Assembly (NCBI RefSeq): GCF_030373545.1
Contig: NZ_JAUDCO010000009.1
Coordinates: 1 to 64,000 of the forward strand
Reading direction: 5' to 3'
Source: Collinsella tanakaei
Lineage (GTDB): Bacteria > Actinomycetota > Coriobacteriia > Coriobacteriales > Coriobacteriaceae
DNA length: 64,000 nucleotides
Shown here: positions 14,671-45,852 of the stretch, piece by piece
How positions within the stretch are numbered: the stretch's first letter is position 1
Layout of the letters: each line of letters opens with the position of its first letter
Notes under the pieces: generated by a model
Told to the model about the DNA's origin: nothing
Databases searched by the model: none
What the model saw: the letters and a program-made list of their open reading frames with translations, nothing else
Position numbers and translations under genes: made by a program

Positions 14671-14790
14671 GATAAGTTTGAACCCGGCACCTTCTTGTCA
14701 GGCGACAAGTTTGTACCCGGCACCATCTTGTCGTCCAGGTGCCGCAGATCGGGGCGAGAGCGACAAGTTTGTACCTGGCACCATCTTGTC
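14671..14790. repeat. Three copies of a 29-bp GACAAG/CTTGTC module
   Basis: Copies at 14671-14699, 14704-14732 and 14762-14790 share the pattern GAYAAGTTTG then ACCYGGCACC then CTTGTC, with GACAAG/CTTGTC able to pair. Between the second and third lies a 23-nt fragment (14733-14755) identical to the left end of the element at 14908. The third copy therefore appears inserted into, or joined to, a truncated element. Further copies occur at 43180-43208 and inside the 38958-39029 palindrome. Confidence 0.85.
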
Positions 14791-14803
14791 GCGACAACGG
14801 AGA

Positions 14804-14904
14804 CGGCCGGCTGAGGGGCCCGAGATTGCCTCGAAGGCCGAGGGCGGACGCCTAGCGTGCGGCGCCCGACGATTGAAGGGCAAGATGGCGACTGTGGAAA
14901 CGGA
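14804..14904. repeat. Structured 104-nt family, chimeric copy
   Basis: It starts CGGCCGGCTGAGG like the complete copies at 15004 and 43220 and keeps the inner helix around GGGCG/GCGCCC. Its 3' part changes to the CGACGATTGA variant and then loses the closing arm, running into the next element. It looks like a truncated or recombinant copy. Confidence 0.7.
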
Positions 14905-14988
14905 CTTTCCAGGTGCCGCAGATCGGGGCGAAAGAGGAGGGCATAGGCCTTGAGGCCATGCCCGACGATTGAGCCCCGAGGTGCGGTG
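14905..14988. repeat. Structured 104-nt family, variant missing its right arm
   Basis: The left arm CCAGGTGCCGCA pairs only in part with TGCGGTG at the right; the remainder is missing. Inner helices TCGGGGC/GCCCCGA and GGGCATAGGCC/GGCCATGCCC are perfect. The internal motifs GAAAGAGGA and CGACGATTGA match the copy at 43328-43429. Confidence 0.75.
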
Positions 14989-15003
14989 TCGCGACAACGG
15001 AGA

Positions 15004-15107
15004 CGGCCGGCTGAGGCGCCCGAGATTGCCTCGAAGGCCGAGGGCGCACGCCTAGCGTGCGGCGCCCGAAGGCCTGAGGGGCAAGGTCGGGTGCCTCAGT
15101 CCGGCCG
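15004..15107. repeat. Complete 104-nt structured repeat element
   Basis: The outer arm CGGCCGGCTGAGG pairs with CCTCAG-T-CCGGCCG, continued by CGCCCGA/TCGGGTG. Inside are TTGCC/GGCAA, AGGCC/GGCCT and GGGCGC/GCGCCC. The copy at 43220-43323 has the same length and layout with paired substitutions in several helices. It lies 6 nt from the 3' end of the ABC exporter gene, so it could also end or protect that transcript. Function unknown. Confidence 0.85.
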
Positions 15108-15113
15108 CAGGGA

Positions 15114-17075
15114 TCAGTCGAGCTCTTTCAATCCTTGATACAGCTGCCAGTACTCCCCGCGCTGCGCGAGTAGCTGCTCGTGGGTACCGCGCTCCACGAT
15201 TTTGCCGTGCTCAAGCACGATGATCGCATCGCAGTTGCGCACCGTCGACAGGCGGTGGGCGATCATGAACGTTGTGCGACCCTCCATGATGCGGTCCATG
15301 CCGCGCTCGATGAGCTTTTCGGTACGCGTGTCGATCGACGACGTCGCCTCGTCCAGGATGAGCACCGGCGGGTCGGCAACCGCGACGCGCGCGATGGCGA
15401 GCAGCTGGCGCTGGCCCTGGGAGAGGTTCGCGCCGTCGGAGGTCACCATGGTGTCGTAGCCCTGCGGCAGACGGCGGATGAACGAATCGGCGCACGCCGC
15501 CTTGGCGGCCGCCCGCACCTCCTCGTCGGTCGCATCCAGCTTGCCGAAGCGGATGTTTTCGGCAATGGTCCCGGTAAACAGATGCGTATCCTGCAGCACG
15601 ATGCCAAGCGAGCGGCGCAGATCGGCCTTGGAGATGCTCTTCACGTTGATGCCGTCGTAGGTGATCTCGCCCGCATCCACATCGTAGAAGCGGTTGATGA
15701 GGTTCGTGATGGTGGTCTTGCCGGCGCCCGTCGACCCGACGAAGGCGATCTTCTGCCCCGGCTTGGCGAACAGGTTGAGCTTCTTGAGCACCAAGCGTCC
15801 CGGCACGTAGCCGAAGTCGACATCGTGGAAGCGCACGTCGCCGCGAAGCGGCAGCATACCCGTCGCGAGCACCGTGCCGTCCACGCCGAGCGCCGTTGTC
15901 TGCGCCACGGCACCGGACTCCTCCGCGGCCAGATCGCCGCCCACGCCGCTGGCCCCCTCAGCCTGCTGCGCACCGTCGGCCACGCGGACGAGCGCACCGT
16001 AGGCGCCGATGCCCATGCCCTCGGGCAGCTTCCACGCCCAGGTGTCGCGCCCGGTCTGCACGAGCTTCACCGTGCCCTCGTCCACCTCGGGCTCCATCTC
16101 CATGGCGGCGAACAGACGCTCCGCGCCGGCCATGGCGTTGAGCAGAAAGTTTCCGAGCTGCGTGAACTGGTTGATGGGCTGGGTCGCCTGGCGCACGAAC
16201 ACGAGGTAGCTCGCCAGCGCGCCCACGTCGGCCATCCCGTTCACGGCGAGCAGCGCGCCCACGACGGCCACGATCGTGTAGTTGACGTACCCGATGCACA
16301 CGGTGGTCGGCACCATCGTGAAGGCGTAAGCCTGCGCGGAGGCACCGGCTTGGCGCAGCTCCTCGTTACGGTCGGTGAACTCGCGGACGTTGGCCGCCTC
16401 GTGATTGAACACCTTCACGACCTTCTGGCCGGCGACCATCTCCTCGATATAGCCGTCGAGCGCGCCGAGCGCGTTTTGCTGGCGCGAGAAGAACATCTTG
16501 CTGCGCCCGCCCGAGAAGCGCACGTACAGCGCGATGACGAGGTTGCACGCCACCGTGATGAGCGTGAGCTGCCAGTTGAGCACAAACAGAACGATAAGCG
16601 TGCCGACCATCTGGATGAAGGCCTGGATGACGTTGGCGAAGCTGTTGTTGAGCGCCTCGGCGACCGTATCGACGTCGTTGGTGAAGTAGCTCATGACATC
16701 GCCGGTGCGGGTGCGGTCGAAAAACGACAGCGGCAGTTTCTGGATATGCGCGAACAGGTCGCGACGGATGTCGAACACGACCTTCTGCGCGGCGCGCACC
16801 ATCGTCTGCGTGTAGCCGAACGACGCGAACACGCCGATGACGTACACGATGACCGTGAACGCGATGAGGCCGGGCAGGTCGTCGCCACGTCCCTCGGACA
16901 GGGCGTTGACCACCGGGCGCACCATGTAGGTGCCGCACAGGTTGGCGAGTGCCGCGATGGATACGAGCACGGCCACCGCAAGCAGCGAGAGCCTCGCATG
17001 CCCCATGTAGGACAGCAGGCGGCGGATCGTATGGCCCAGGTTTTGCGGCCGGGCCTGAGCGGTCGTCCTAGCCAC
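15114..17075 (-). CDS. ABC exporter half-transporter, catalytic subunit
   Basis: A type IV ABC exporter half (about 653 residues): six membrane helices (about residues 30-330), then an ATPase domain with Walker A GSTGAGKTT, signature LSQGQRQLLA and Walker B VLILDEATSSID with an intact catalytic Glu. Between the domains is an unusual Ala/Gly-rich insertion of about 70 residues. I prefer the GTG at 17075, nine bases after AAGGGG; a GTG at 17084 is also in frame but too close to that site. The start overlaps the end of the partner gene, implying translational coupling. With the upstream half it should form a heterodimeric multidrug-type exporter; substrate unknown. Confidence 0.88.
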   Translation of the reverse strand: MARTTAQARPQNLGHTIRRLLSYMGHARLSLLAVAVLVSIAALANLCGTYMVRPVVNALSEGRGDDLPGLIAFTVIVYVIGVFASFGYTQTMVRAAQKVVFDIRRDLFAHIQKLPLSFFDRTRTGDVMSYFTNDVDTVAEALNNSFANVIQAFIQMVGTLIVLFVLNWQLTLITVACNLVIALYVRFSGGRSKMFFSRQQNALGALDGYIEEMVAGQKVVKVFNHEAANVREFTDRNEELRQAGASAQAYAFTMVPTTVCIGYVNYTIVAVVGALLAVNGMADVGALASYLVFVRQATQPINQFTQLGNFLLNAMAGAERLFAAMEMEPEVDEGTVKLVQTGRDTWAWKLPEGMGIGAYGALVRVADGAQQAEGASGVGGDLAAEESGAVAQTTALGVDGTVLATGMLPLRGDVRFHDVDFGYVPGRLVLKKLNLFAKPGQKIAFVGSTGAGKTTITNLINRFYDVDAGEITYDGINVKSISKADLRRSLGIVLQDTHLFTGTIAENIRFGKLDATDEEVRAAAKAACADSFIRRLPQGYDTMVTSDGANLSQGQRQLLAIARVAVADPPVLILDEATSSIDTRTEKLIERGMDRIMEGRTTFMIAHRLSTVRNCDAIIVLEHGKIVERGTHEQLLAQRGEYWQLYQGLKELD

Positions 17076-18885
17076 GCTGCTCACCCCCTTCCCCGAGCAC
17101 GGCGTCCGTCACAGCGCCCTCCACAGCGGTCGCCCGCGCGCCCGCAGCGGTAGCTTCCTGCGCGTGCTCCATCTGCGATGCGTAGATCTCCTGGTAGATA
17201 CTGTCGGTCGCGAGCAGCTCGTCGTGCGTGCCGTGCGCATGGATGCGCCCGTCGTCGAGCACGAAGATCTCGTCGGCGTCCATGACCGACGTGATGCGCT
17301 GACCGATGATGATCACCGTCGCGTCCGGGATGCTCGCCAGGTTGGCGCGGATCTTGGCCTCGGTTGCCATGTCGACCGCACTCGTGGAGTCGTCGAAGAT
17401 CAGGATGCGCGGGCGCTTGAGCAGGGTGCGCGCGATGCACAGGCGCTGCTTCTGGCCGCCGGACACGCCGGCGCCGCCCTGGCCCAGGTCGCCGTCGAGC
17501 CCGCCGATGCGATCCAAGAACTCGTCGGCGCACGCCATCTCACAGGCGTGCAGCAGCTCCTCGTCGGAAGCGTCCGGAGCGCCCCACTGCAGGTTCTCGC
17601 GGACGGTCCCCGTGAACAGCACGTTGTTCTGCAGCACGACGCCGACCGCCTCGCGCAGCTCCGCGAGGTCGTAGGCGCGCACATCGTGGCCGCCGACGCG
17701 AACCGTGCCGGCGGTCGCATCGTACAGGCGGGCGATCAGCTGCACGAGTGAGCTCTTGCCCGAACCGGTCGAGCCGAGCACGCCCACGGTCGCGCCGGAC
17801 GGGATGGACAGGCTCACGTCCTCGAGCACGTCCTCCTCGGCGTCGGCGCTGTACTTGAAGCTCACATGGTCGAACTCCACCGACCCGTCCGGCACCTCGG
17901 TGAGCGCCGTCGCGGTATCGGGACTCGCGATCAGCGGTTGCTCGTCGAGCACCTCGCCCACGCGCCGCACACTCGTGAGCGCGCGCGTGAGCAGCAGAAA
18001 CACGTTCGAGATCATCATGAGCGAGTTCATGATCTGCAGCACGTAGCTCATGAAGCCGGTGAGGATGCCCACGCCCATGGCGCCGGTCATGACCATGTGG
18101 CCGCCCACGGCGAGCACGAGCACTGTGGTGGTGTACATGACGATGTTGAACGCCGGCAGGTTGAGCACCGCCGTCGAGAACGTCTTGGTCGAGGTCTTGG
18201 CAAGCGCATCGTTGACGCCGTGGAAGACCTCGCGCTCATAGCCCTCGCGCACGTAGGCCTTGACGGCGCGCACGGCGGTCACGTCCTCCTGGACCACGCG
18301 GTTCAGATGGTCCATGGACGTCTGCAGGTCGCGATAGAGCGGTGCCACGCGCCACGTGATGAGGCCGAGGAAAATCGCGAGCACCGGCATCGTGCAGAAG
18401 AAGACCACGGCGAGCTCGGCGTTCATGACGTAGGCGTAGATGAAGCCCATGACGAGCAGCACCGGGCCGCGCACCATGGGCCGAAAACCGCTCGACACCG
18501 CGTTTTGGATCACGGTGATGTCGGTCGTCATGCGGGTAACGAGGCTCGAGGTCTGGTAGCGATCGAGGTTGCCGAAAGCGAAGTCCTGGATCCGTTCGTA
18601 CTCGGCTTGGCGCAACTGGGCACCGATGCCCGTGGCGAGCCGCGAGGCGAAGCGGGCATATCCCAAGCCAAGGACGAGCGACAGCAGCGCGAGGGCGAGC
18701 ATGATCGCGCCCTGCTCGAAGATGTAGCGGGTGTCTCCGCTGGCGACGCCCTCGTCGATGATGTTGGCCATGAGCAGGGGGATCAGCAACTCGAGCGAGG
18801 TCTCGAGCGCCACGAAGATAATGCCGAGCACCGCGTCGCGGCGATAGGGCCCCACGTAGTGCAGCAGGCGGCGGATCTCATTCAT
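17068..18885 (-). CDS. ABC exporter half-transporter with degenerate Walker B
   Basis: A 605-residue type IV ABC exporter half with six membrane helices and an ATPase domain: Walker A GSTGSGKSS, signature VSGGQKQRLCIA, and Walker B ILIFDDSTSAVD. Asp replaces the catalytic Glu after Walker B. This is the hallmark of the non-catalytic partner in heterodimeric exporters such as TM287/288 and BmrC/BmrD (family knowledge). Start ATG at 18885 follows GGAGGC. It overlaps the MarR gene before it and the other half after it, so all three form one tightly packed operon. Confidence 0.9.
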   Translation of the reverse strand: MNEIRRLLHYVGPYRRDAVLGIIFVALETSLELLIPLLMANIIDEGVASGDTRYIFEQGAIMLALALLSLVLGLGYARFASRLATGIGAQLRQAEYERIQDFAFGNLDRYQTSSLVTRMTTDITVIQNAVSSGFRPMVRGPVLLVMGFIYAYVMNAELAVVFFCTMPVLAIFLGLITWRVAPLYRDLQTSMDHLNRVVQEDVTAVRAVKAYVREGYEREVFHGVNDALAKTSTKTFSTAVLNLPAFNIVMYTTTVLVLAVGGHMVMTGAMGVGILTGFMSYVLQIMNSLMMISNVFLLLTRALTSVRRVGEVLDEQPLIASPDTATALTEVPDGSVEFDHVSFKYSADAEEDVLEDVSLSIPSGATVGVLGSTGSGKSSLVQLIARLYDATAGTVRVGGHDVRAYDLAELREAVGVVLQNNVLFTGTVRENLQWGAPDASDEELLHACEMACADEFLDRIGGLDGDLGQGGAGVSGGQKQRLCIARTLLKRPRILIFDDSTSAVDMATEAKIRANLASIPDATVIIIGQRITSVMDADEIFVLDDGRIHAHGTHDELLATDSIYQEIYASQMEHAQEATAAGARATAVEGAVTDAVLGEGGEQRG

Positions 18886-43134: not shown

Positions 43135-43171
43135 AAAAAAGCCTCCGGGCCCAGAAGGGACCCGGAGGCTT
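43135..43171 (-). terminator. Intrinsic terminator of aspS
   Basis: On the minus strand an 11-bp stem AAGCCTCCGGG/CCCGGAGGCTT is followed by TTTTTT. Two repeat elements separate it from the aspS stop. Confidence 0.85.
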
Positions 43172-43179
43172 CACGGTGC

Positions 43180-43208
43180 GACAAGTTTGCACCTGGCACC
43201 ATCTTGTC
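43180..43208. repeat. 29-bp GACAAG/CTTGTC module
   Basis: Same pattern as the copies at 14704-14732 and 14762-14790, with one transition (TTTGCACC). As at 14762 it is followed 11 nt later by a 104-nt structured element. Confidence 0.85.
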
Positions 43209-43219
43209 GACAACGGCAA

Positions 43220-43323
43220 CGGCCGGCTGAGGTGCCGCAAATTGCCGTGAAAGCCGAGGGCGCACGCCTGACGTGCGGCGCCCGAAGGCTTGAACGGCAA
43301 GGTGCGGTGCCTCAGTCCGGCCG
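43220..43323. repeat. Complete 104-nt structured repeat element
   Basis: Outer arm CGGCCGGCTGAGGTGCCGCA pairs with TGCGGTGCCTCAG-T-CCGGCCG. Inside are TTGCCGT/ACGGCAA, AAGCC/GGCTT and GGGCGC/GCGCCC. Compared with 15004-15107 the helices change in pairs (GCCGCA/TGCGGT for GCCCGA/TCGGGT; AAGCC/GGCTT for AGGCC/GGCCT). Confidence 0.88.
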
Positions 43324-43327
43324 TTTA

Positions 43328-43429
43328 CGGCTTTCCCAGGTGCCCGAGATTCGCCCGAAAGAGGAGGGAGCACGCCTTAAGGGCGGCGACCGACGATTGA
43401 GGACGAAGATCGGGTGCCTGGGAAAGCCG
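43328..43429. repeat. 102-nt structured repeat element, second type
   Basis: Outer arms CGGCTTTCCCAGGTGCCCGA and TCGGGTGCCTGGGAAAGCCG pair over 20 bp with one wobble. The inside keeps ATTCG/CGAAGAT, GAAAGAGGAGGG and CGACGATTGAG, as in the copy at 14905-14988. It lies in tandem with the first-type element and 18 nt from the aspS stop. Confidence 0.85.
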
Positions 43430-43446: not shown

Positions 43447-45243
43447 CTACATCAGACGCAGGCCGACTTCCTTCAGCTGGGCCATCGAGACCTCGCTCGG
43501 CGCGGCGGACATGAGATCGGAGCCGCTCGAGGTCTTGGGGAACGCCATGACGTCGCGGATGGAATCCGAACCTGCGAGCAGCATGCACACGCGGTCCAAA
43601 CCGAGCGCGAAGCCGCCCATGGGAGGCGCACCGAACTCGAGGGCGTCCATGAGGAAGCCGAACTGCTCGCGGGCACGCTCCTCGGAAAAGCCCATGAACT
43701 CGAGCATCTTGAGCTGCAGCTCGGAATTGTGGATGCGCATGCCGCCACCGCCGGCCTCGAATCCGTCCATGACGAAGTCGTAGGTGCAGCTGCCCATGGC
43801 GAGCGGATCGGTCTCGAGCAGGTCGAGCTGATCGACATGCGGCAGGGTGAACGGCTGGTGCTCGGCCTCGTAGCGCTTGGCCTCGTCGTCCCAGTGGAAC
43901 AGCGGGAAGTCGACGACCCATAGGAAGTCGTGGCCCGTGCGCTCGATGCCCAGGGCGTCGGCCATGTGGGAGCGCATGCCGCCCAAGATTTCGTCGGAGG
44001 CCAGACGCGGGCCGGCGGCGAACATCACGAGGTCGCCGGGCTCCACATCGCAGCGACGACGCAGCTCGTCCATCTCCTCGTCGGCAAAGAACTTGACGAT
44101 GGGGCTGTTGATGGAGCCGTCCTCGCGGAAGGCAATCCACGCCAGGCCCTTGGCGCCGAAGGTCTCGGCGACCTTGGCGAGCTTGTCGATCTGCGCGCGC
44201 GGCCAAGCGCCCGCACCCTTGGCGTTGATGGCCTTGACGACCTGGCCCTCCATGTTGGCAGCGCCGGCGAACACCTTGAACTTGGAGTTCTTGAACACGT
44301 CGGTCAGGTCGACGAGCGTCATGCCGTAGCGCGTATCGGGCTTGTCGGAGCCGTAGGTATCCATGGCGTCCCAGTAGGACAGGCGGCGCAGCGGCGTGGG
44401 CATGTCCACGCCCACACGGGCGAAGGCGTCGGCGAGCACGTCCTCGAGCGCGCCCATGACATCGTCCTGCTCGACGAAGCTCATCTCGATGTCCACCTGC
44501 GTGAACTCGGGCTGGCGGTCGGCGCGCAGGTCCTCGTCGCGGAAGCACTTGGCAACCTGGTAGTAGCGCTCCACGCCGCCCACCATGAGCAGCTGCTTCA
44601 GCAGCTGCGGGGACTGCGGCAGGGCGTAGAAGCTGCCGGGCTGCAGGCGGGAGGGAACGATGAAGTCGCGCGCGCCCTCCGGCGTGGACTTGAACAGCGA
44701 CGGCGTCTCGACCTCCATGAACGCGCGGTCGTGCAGCGCCGTGCGGATCGCGAACGTGAAGTCGGAGCGCAGCTTCATGTTGGCCATCATCTCGGGACGG
44801 CGCAGGTCGAGGTAGCGATAGCGCAGACGGGTGTCCTCGGACGTCTCGATACCGTCCTCGATCTGGAACGGCGGGGTCTTGGAGCGGTTGAGCACCTCGA
44901 CGCGGTCGGTCAAAACCTCGATCTCACCGGTCGGGAGCTTGGGGTTGATCGTGTCCTCATCGCGGGCGATAACCGTGCCGTGCACGAGGATCGGCCACTC
45001 GGGGCGCATGGTCTCGGCGATGTGGAAGGCCTCGCCGGCGGCGTGCTCCGGGTCGAACGTGCACTGCGTGATGCCCTCGCGGTCGCGCAGGTCGCAGAAG
45101 ATCAGGCCGCCGTGGTCGCGACGACGGGAGACCCAACCGGTGAGCGTAACCTCCTCGCCGATGTTGACGGCGCGCAGCTCACCGCAGGTGCGGGTGTGCA
45201 TGGAATGAATGTCGGCGGGGTTTTGCGTGTGGTCGTGTGCCAC
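43447..45243 (-). CDS. aspS: Aspartyl-tRNA synthetase
   Basis: Charges tRNA(Asp). The 598-residue bacterial-type enzyme has the anticodon-binding OB fold (TLTGWVSRRRDHGGLIFCDL), class II motif 2 (RCFRDEDLRADRQPEFTQ), a GAD insertion domain, and motif 3 (GLDRVCMLLAGSDSIRDVMAF). I start it at a GTG at 45243, preceded by AAGGAGGATT; an internal ATG at 45201 lacks a ribosome-binding site. Whether it also misacylates tRNA(Asn) cannot be judged here. It is followed by two structured repeats and a terminator. Confidence 0.96.
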   Translation of the reverse strand: MAHDHTQNPADIHSMHTRTCGELRAVNIGEEVTLTGWVSRRRDHGGLIFCDLRDREGITQCTFDPEHAAGEAFHIAETMRPEWPILVHGTVIARDEDTINPKLPTGEIEVLTDRVEVLNRSKTPPFQIEDGIETSEDTRLRYRYLDLRRPEMMANMKLRSDFTFAIRTALHDRAFMEVETPSLFKSTPEGARDFIVPSRLQPGSFYALPQSPQLLKQLLMVGGVERYYQVAKCFRDEDLRADRQPEFTQVDIEMSFVEQDDVMGALEDVLADAFARVGVDMPTPLRRLSYWDAMDTYGSDKPDTRYGMTLVDLTDVFKNSKFKVFAGAANMEGQVVKAINAKGAGAWPRAQIDKLAKVAETFGAKGLAWIAFREDGSINSPIVKFFADEEMDELRRRCDVEPGDLVMFAAGPRLASDEILGGMRSHMADALGIERTGHDFLWVVDFPLFHWDDEAKRYEAEHQPFTLPHVDQLDLLETDPLAMGSCTYDFVMDGFEAGGGGMRIHNSELQLKMLEFMGFSEERAREQFGFLMDALEFGAPPMGGFALGLDRVCMLLAGSDSIRDVMAFPKTSSGSDLMSAAPSEVSMAQLKEVGLRLM

Positions 45244-45852
45244 GGAAATCCTCCTTTTTGATCTGTGTCGCCCCGTGCCGGTACGGGCGACGTCGTACAG
45301 ATTCCCGAGCGTGCGTAGACAGCGCATCTCGGGTTTTGCCGCAATACCCCTATAGGGAGCGCGGCTGCATTAGCATACCGGAAATGCCGTGCGGCGCCAC
45401 GAAAAAGCACGGGTTCTTGCGACTCTTAACAAAGGGGAAGCATTGGCCCGCGCCGGCAGCGACACGCGGCGCAGGCGGGTCTCTCCTTCCCCCGAGCCTG
45501 CATACAGGTATGCGCAGACGAAGACCCGCATTATTTCTGGCAACAAAACCATAGATAATCAAGAATGAATCACCCCGCGTGCGGACGCGGGCGCGGGCGC
45601 GGGTGCTCCAAACCGTGCACATACGCAAGCTCTGACCTGCAAGTTTCGCCGTGCATCCCGTCAAAAGAACACCTCGGACGACGCTCCCGGCAAAACGAAC
45701 ATCTATCAAAAACTGAATCATATCCGCCCATTATCGTATTGGAATGTATATTTCTATCCTGTTGCATGCATATTTACGCTTGCACATGCACATCAGCAAG
45801 TATTAGGATGTGCCACATTCGCAACGAAGCACCCTGTGGAAGGAGCTCTTTT
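45244..45852. other. Intergenic region between aspS and the amino-acid transporter
   Basis: About 600 nt separating divergent genes. It is less GC-rich than the coding sequence, especially near 45700-45800. No RNA, repeat or conserved small ORF was recognised. Promoters of both flanking units must lie here. Confidence 0.5.

Follow-up and report, generated by a model that had tools for sequence, protein, structure and literature searches.

A family of covarying hairpins with conserved purine mismatches behind stop codons in Collinsella and its order

We describe long hairpins that recur in Collinsella tanakaei and across its bacterial order, frequently directly behind the stop codon of a gene on the opposite strand. 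With a probability of roughly 0.5, we read them as small non-coding mobile elements of this order, REP- or ERIC-like in kind, in which a DNA fold is kept for mobility. The window, i.e., the whole 64,000-nt stretch of DNA analyzed here, is contig C25 within a 2.2-Mb genome and contains two arrays of such elements in two main types (first type, A; second type, B), along with the following neighboring features:

14704..14732, minus strand: 29-bp palindromic REP-like module, copy 1 (pattern match)
14762..14790, minus strand: 29-bp palindromic REP-like module, copy 2, 13 nt ahead of copy 14804
14804..14895, plus strand: copy 14804, a broken, non-folding mosaic (z -0.35; R1 63.4 bits)
14912..14990, plus strand: second-type (B) hairpin (z -5.97; R1 89.8 bits)
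15004..15107, plus strand: first-type (A) hairpin (z -8.24; R1 100.3 bits)
15114..17084, minus strand: presumed ABC transporter gene (judged from its sequence), its stop codon abutted by the first array
43135..43172, minus strand: terminator-like hairpin with a T-run (read from the sequence), beyond the array as seen from aspS
43180..43208, minus strand: 29-bp REP-like module, 11 nt ahead of copy 43220
43218..43325, plus strand: first-type (A) hairpin (z -9.30; R1 98.1 bits)
43328..43429, plus strand: second-type (B) hairpin (z -8.31; R1 88.3 bits)
43447..45327, minus strand: presumed aspS (aspartyl-tRNA synthetase), its stop codon abutted by the second array
45252-45333, minus strand: aspS RNA (RF02930), an Rfam match at the start of aspS

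The initial annotation of this DNA had proposed that five elements fold into the same nested helices. This holds for four of them, whose z-scores run from about -6 to -9 (-5.97 to -9.30) and for each of which 0 of 200 shuffles folded as well, but not for copy 14804 (z -0.35), which is equaled by 75 of 200 shuffles. The 5' half of that copy is of the first type, its 3' half (CGACGATTGA) is of the second and its outer 3' arm is unrelated; it nevertheless scores 63.4 bits with R1, the covariance model introduced below. The first array ends 6 nt short of the stop of the gene at 15114 and the second 17 nt short of that of the gene at 43447, both genes being on the minus strand. We take these genes, from their sequences, to be an ABC transporter gene and aspS, respectively, and the C-terminus of each was matched in 65 of the 65 genomes of the host family (paralogs included for the gene at 15114). 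It had also been remarked that a 29-bp module shortly precedes two of the copies; the spacing is as described (13 nt for copy 14804, 11 nt for copy 43220), although the relevant gene end lies on the opposite side.

As proposed in the initial annotation, we built a covariance model, R1, on 14 copies from this genome, used it to search the genome and its relatives, and compared the hairpin with Rfam. In the 65 genomes of the host family, R1 gave 896 matches in 5 of the 6 genera, with 54 of the genomes positive at E 0.01 or better and from 0 to 51 matches per genome. Copy number varies sharply inside genera, e.g., between G048 (51) and G047 (0) of genus g3, and this unevenness argues for a mobile element. 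Over 396 genomes of the class, 121 were matched at 1e-4, every one of them in the same order, in the own family (f1), in families f2 and f3, and in one f6 genome. Matches in f2 are partly as strong as those in f1 (e.g., 97.9 bits in G210), and those in f3 are mostly weaker. Rfam 15, applied at the gathering threshold to the window and 8 other loci, had no match to the hairpin, and matches at a relaxed threshold had E of 2.3 or worse. A scan of public collections with a short core pattern, which is unspecific, returned at least 117 stretches, with Collinsella and Enorma listed among many chance-looking records. There was no R1 match in the 46 viral stretches found with this pattern, and nothing links the hairpin to phages (viruses were covered by the pattern, not by the model itself). 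We did not recognize the family in those parts of the literature that we covered on Collinsella RNA motifs, REP sequences and palindromes, REPs at stop codons, Eggerthella repeats, tandem GA and double hairpins; PMC8040213 reports thousands of candidate RNAs in its supplements, and the hairpin could already be among them.

The comparisons that follow are based largely on 135 copies (126 distinct), a high-scoring sample of the 896 from 30 genomes and 96 sources of our own choosing, in which most lower-scoring copies are left out. Each hairpin is one long imperfect stem of ~80-110 nt (79-108 nt for the intact copies in the window), and alignments show a common architecture for A and B. From the outside, both have an outer stem, an inner GGTGCC word pair joined via tandem T.G/G.T, loop L1 (mostly GA/GG), a 7-bp helix, L2 (GA/GA), a middle helix, L3 (GA with GAA or GA) and a terminal stem. 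The middle helix is AAGCC/GGCTT in A and AA-GA-G against C-GA-TT in B. On our reading of the alignment, the "loops" would be tandem purine pairs. This bears on two internal words, GAAAGAGGA and CGACGATTGA, that had been described as unpaired and retained in the second type: the motifs are indeed kept, but they are better read as paired, probably in the form GA-AA-GA-G-GA against GA-C-GA-TT-GA, in which one or two Watson-Crick pairs stand between the tandem G.A mismatches. Among the 126 distinct copies, 119 retain the G.A/G.A of L2, and columns 3 and 4 have 86 and 91 G.T versus 0 and 0 A.C. As to the GTAG/GGAG or CGTC tag that REP sequences have at one end, a AACGGAGACGG head was seen by eye in a subset of copies and different heads in others. 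Folding favors the purine-mismatch strand over its complement in 111 of 113 copies under RNA parameters (mean -73.4 versus -59.9 kcal/mol) and in 109 of 113 under DNA parameters; these 113 are the members of the 135 with 7 or more paired positions in the outer arms.

The helices covary throughout. In the 14 copies of the own genome, 16 of 31 pairs have changed on both sides, compared with 1-8 when the structure is slid along the alignment. In the 135 copies, 24 of 30 pairs have done so, with 479 double-change cells versus 148.8 ± 8.5 after shuffling and at most 41 in slid structures. Covariation is thus present among copies genome-wide and beyond, where the initial annotation had named its absence as evidence against selection on structure, and the paired changes it had pointed out (GCCGCA/TGCGGT versus GCCCGA/TCGGGT, AAGCC/GGCTT versus AGGCC/GGCCT) are there in the sequence. 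Since the alignment of the 135 copies was fitted to the model, we also tested the outer arms, which are absent from it: across the first ten positions of 106 distinct arm pairs, 71% are Watson-Crick versus 45 ± 1.4% when arms are reassigned (maximum 48% in 500). The mismatches covary as well. At L1, the combinations GA/GG (71) and GG/GA (24) prevail over GA/GA (13) and GG/GG (4), with p 2e-11, and in the terminal stem GC/GC (83) and GA/GA (29) switch jointly with one exception among these states, with p 4e-26; relatedness is ignored in both tests. That the hairpins form one family is supported by the data.

Pairwise comparison of hairpins that lie behind one gene in two genomes, with cores 85% identical or more, gives 21 Watson-Crick double changes, 4 more with G.T and 29 one-sided changes; compensation and the arrival of another copy would look alike in these double changes. 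The initial annotation had argued that the copies reflect "not plain duplication." Duplication may nevertheless have a place: since copies move, swap and may convert, part of the paired changes may be the import of whole hairpins instead of stepwise compensation.

As for the position relative to genes, called here with a simple codon-usage script, 91 of the 135 copies have the end of an opposite-strand gene no more than 45 nt from the 3' side of the core, and the purine-mismatch strand is antisense to that gene. Another class, with a sense gene end on the 5' side, comprises 8 copies, four of which are also in the antisense class. Of the 40 copies in neither class, 29 are distal members of tandem arrays; the remaining 11 include five ahead of a start codon (L072, L073, L078, L124 and L132) and L042, narrowly below the score threshold. 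The five are in sense orientation, about 30-50 nt ahead of the start codon. In 76 of the 91 antisense cases, the stem base lies within 15 nt of the stop, which the stem reaches in 23 of those 76, and in some copies the outer stems extend over the stop codon into the gene end. The neighbor genes were taken from 94 open frames, some of which are probably not genes (e.g., one behind 43231). Many abutted genes look core-like, some of them recurring across genera; from their protein sequences, we take these to be gyrB, aspS, pheS, cysS, dnaN, relA and dnaJ, and other abutted genes to include arcA, hisF and pstB.

Both the short distance to the stop and the core-like neighbors are what one would expect of a cis-acting mRNA element, in which the stem on the complementary strand makes ribosomes stall at termination or protects the 3' end of the mRNA, selection on expression keeps structure and position, and mobility brings in new copies. 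There is also a precedent, in that E. coli REPs less than 16 nt from the stop codon stall ribosomes, according to work cited in PMC12306157. The transcribed strand, however, would have unstable C.U, C.C and A.C at the conserved mismatch sites, and it is the strand with the weaker fold in 111 of 113 copies. We regard an element of this kind, kept by selection on expression, as possible but unlikely, and two further results below, on occupancy and on wobble pairs, also speak against it.

At orthologous sites, occupancy is patchy. R1 matched 6 of 30 loci for aspS (G000, G040, G045, G024 and G034, and G042 with a different element), 4 of 30 for the gene at 15114 (G000, G040, G045 and G024; the G034 locus ends at a contig end) and 17 of 50 for gyrB-gyrA, which counts against an mRNA element. 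By eye, the gyrB-gyrA gap holds type A in G000 and G024, type B in G040, G048, G026, G063, G025, G012, G009 and G017, another A-like hairpin in G016 and G039, a further variant in G064 and a third kind in G032, G042 and G020. G000 and G040 have different hairpin types there, yet are identical across 140 C-terminal GyrB residues. The mismatch strand is antisense to gyrB in 16 of the 17 matching loci, the exception being G038. For 69 of 94 copies, the core of greatest similarity lies behind a different gene, and three pairs of identical cores stand behind different genes. Loci without an R1 match are available for comparing empty with occupied sites, and they are too diverged for defining borders or a clean target-site duplication.

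Two single loci in the gyrB-gyrA gap illustrate how hairpins change in place. L262 (G038) and L275 (G016), from close relatives, hold the same hairpin in opposite orientation, which is a natural inversion of the palindrome. In L228 (G045), the gap contains TAACTTCGGGTACCCGGGAGACCCGAA, with no R1 match, and this looks like hairpin arms remaining after loss of the interior. We take partial occupancy with type swap, inversion and remnant, together with highly similar or identical cores behind different genes, as arguments for mobility.

An inverted copy and an arm remnant, like the mosaic copy 14804 and the outer stems that cross a stop codon into the gene end, could also come about with no selection on structure at all, if template switching within palindromes perfected the hairpins and gene conversion spread them; the paired changes would then be purely mutational. 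Template switching should also remove internal mismatches, yet 119 of 126 distinct copies still have the tandem G.A. Nor does it account for the orientation bias or for the co-changes at L1 (p 2e-11) and between GC/GC and GA/GA (p 4e-26, relatedness ignored in both), in which L1 does not turn Watson-Crick. We consider a purely mutational origin improbable.

If pairing in RNA is under selection, G.U should be tolerated above A.C on the functional strand. At ordinary pairs, i.e., leaving out columns 3-4 (fixed wobbles) and columns 25, 26, 33 and 34 (variable), the 60 best rows give a G.T to A.C ratio of 13:12, the following 40 give 10:13 and all others 27:36, for a total of 50:61. As a control, the aspS RNA of the same family (31 sequences, 21 distinct) has 18 G.U and 2 A.C, a contrast that we give without a formal test. 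In the outer arms, there are 53 G.T and 12 A.C at positions 4-5 and 40:38 elsewhere. The one-sided changes between same-gene hairpins comprise 19 G.T and 5 A.C, pairwise and non-independent counts that become 8:5 without the 11 of the 19 that fall in columns 3-4. Certain wobbles are favored on one strand, and elsewhere the wobble advantage is little or none. The lack of a general G.U preference on either strand (50:61) counts against an mRNA element; the equal frequency of G.T and A.C is also compatible with template switching.

The initial annotation had left it at selection on the structure of RNA or of single-stranded DNA. Covariation above controls and the kept motifs agree with selection on structure, and of the two alternatives DNA fits better, because ordinary pairs give 50:61 where the aspS RNA gives 18:2, and because, of 135 copies, 91 carry the stable non-canonical pairs on the strand antisense to the neighbor gene and 8 on a strand that is sense behind a stop. 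Selection at the level of RNA is possible, but we do not favor it. A free-standing non-coding RNA made from the mismatch strand would be in keeping with the very strong fold of that strand and with its fixed wobbles, and tandem G.A and tandem U.G are stable RNA motifs. We nevertheless think it very improbable, as antisense promoters would be needed at the 91 of 135 copies where this strand is antisense to the adjoining gene, Rfam has no match and G.U is not favored at ordinary pairs. For a mobile element folding as DNA, on the other hand, we count the ratios of 50:61 at ordinary pairs and 40:38 in the outer arms (versus 18:2 in the aspS RNA), the retention of L2 in 119 of 126, the joint switch between GC/GC and GA/GA, the better fold of the mismatch strand (111 and 109 of 113) and the outer arms that pair at 71% versus 45% when reassigned.

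In several respects the hairpin resembles known elements. Integron attC sites are folded single-strand recombination sites whose extrahelical bases mark the strand used; the hairpin is like them in that structure is kept and sequence is variable, a working analogy only. The aspS RNA (RF02930) and the hairpin are alike in having covarying helices, but the former has one match in each of the 65 genomes and a ratio of 18:2, whereas the latter is dispersed and patchy, at 50:61. Like REP, BIME and REPIN sequences, the hairpin is multicopy, intergenic, palindromic, arranged in tandem arrays and near stop codons, and the many intergenic copies near gene ends that characterize REPs are found here (896 matches in 65 genomes; 91 of 135 copies abutting a stop). 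REPs measure 20-40 bp according to PMC3733652; by contrast, the four intact copies in the window have stems of 79-108 nt, and the hairpin shows purine mismatches at regular intervals together with covarying helices. PMC3733652 also notes that GTAG REP ends often provide the TAG stop of flanking ORFs; REP-like repeats are thus known to lie behind genes, and this hairpin shows the habit in strong form. ERIC sequences (about 127 bp) share with it, in form, one long imperfect stem-loop and an intergenic location, and Yersinia ERIC copies influence neighboring genes via RNA hairpins (PMC2267715). In the portion of PMC2267715 that we covered, the description of ERIC does not mention strand-specific tandem G.A, helix-wide covariation or the stop-codon rule that mark the hairpin.

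Other repeats occur near the hairpins. The 29-bp module is a separate REP-like repeat, with the palindrome GACAAG...CTTGTC and dozens of copies genome-wide; of the 58 genome matches listed, 50 fall on this module and nothing else, with some entered once for each strand, and the window contains 3 copies. The module is also found near the gyrB hairpin copy and at L134 7284; in L134, L450, L452 and L456, copies are some 0.4-1.7 kb away from Y1 transposase genes. At L134 5597-7080 (contig C3), a Y1_Tnp (RAYT-like) gene has another repeat, GGGTTGGTTGGGGACGTGTTCC...CAACCC, on either side, a classic REP/RAYT arrangement. Near hairpins, and near a Y1 gene as well, there is also a recurrent palindrome around CCCTAGGG (ACCCCTAGGGTTATTTCAC-like; L135 4840-5100, L130, L105).

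Two candidate enzymes were considered for the hairpin itself. Y1 transposase (Y1_Tnp) genes are present in 53 of the 65 family genomes and track the hairpin, both in presence (49/5 versus 4/7, p 0.0003) and in copy number (rho 0.47), without correction for phylogeny. At 49 distinct Y1 places, covered by 52 surrounding stretches (three of the places came up twice), R1 had no match, and G002 and G004 carry 18 and 23 hairpin copies with no Y1 match. We therefore rejected a RAYT as the hairpin's enzyme and keep the co-occurrence as a lead only. Reverse transcriptase (PF00078), which is found in 21 of 65 genomes and not in G000, shows no association with the hairpin (p 0.74) and was rejected as well.

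If the hairpins are mobile DNA elements, as we prefer, the purine-mismatch strand would fold as single-stranded DNA and be recognized by some enzyme, for which the mismatches would mark the strand. Arm pairing would be required for mobility, and pairing would then be kept while the sequence drifts and copies recombine. Once transcribed, the complementary hairpin at the stop may modestly damp translation or protect the mRNA 3' end, and such effects on the gene may help decide which insertions survive. A more specific version is conceivable from the sequences but rather doubtful: a class of mobile DNA hairpins in which spaced purine-purine and wobble mismatches would mark the strand for a non-RAYT enzyme, with insertion into the template strand just behind stops, such that mobility would be coupled to the end of translation.

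Several observations count against the mobile reading. Mobility by itself accounts neither for the position behind stop codons (91 of 135) nor for the single orientation, and these could point to selection for a function at the level of the gene; the stop-codon rule is what this reading explains least. The wobble preference at fixed positions (columns 3-4, arm positions 4-5) and the 19 versus 5 in same-gene changes also count against it. No enzyme was found: Y1 places have no R1 match beside them, G002 and G004 have copies with no Y1 match, and neither a target-site duplication nor an exact insertion border was found.

What emerges is a widespread repeat of gut Coriobacteriia that combines helix-wide covariation, non-canonical pairs included, with a preferred place at the stops of genes that often look core-like, a marked bias in orientation and rapid turnover. 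Its example suggests that a functional RNA need not lie behind strong covariation, and counting G.U versus A.C alongside a real RNA from the same genomes provides a simple control for covariation claims. If the stop-codon rule reflects targeting or selection at termination, the old question of why REPs lie behind genes would become directly testable in a tractable set of species.
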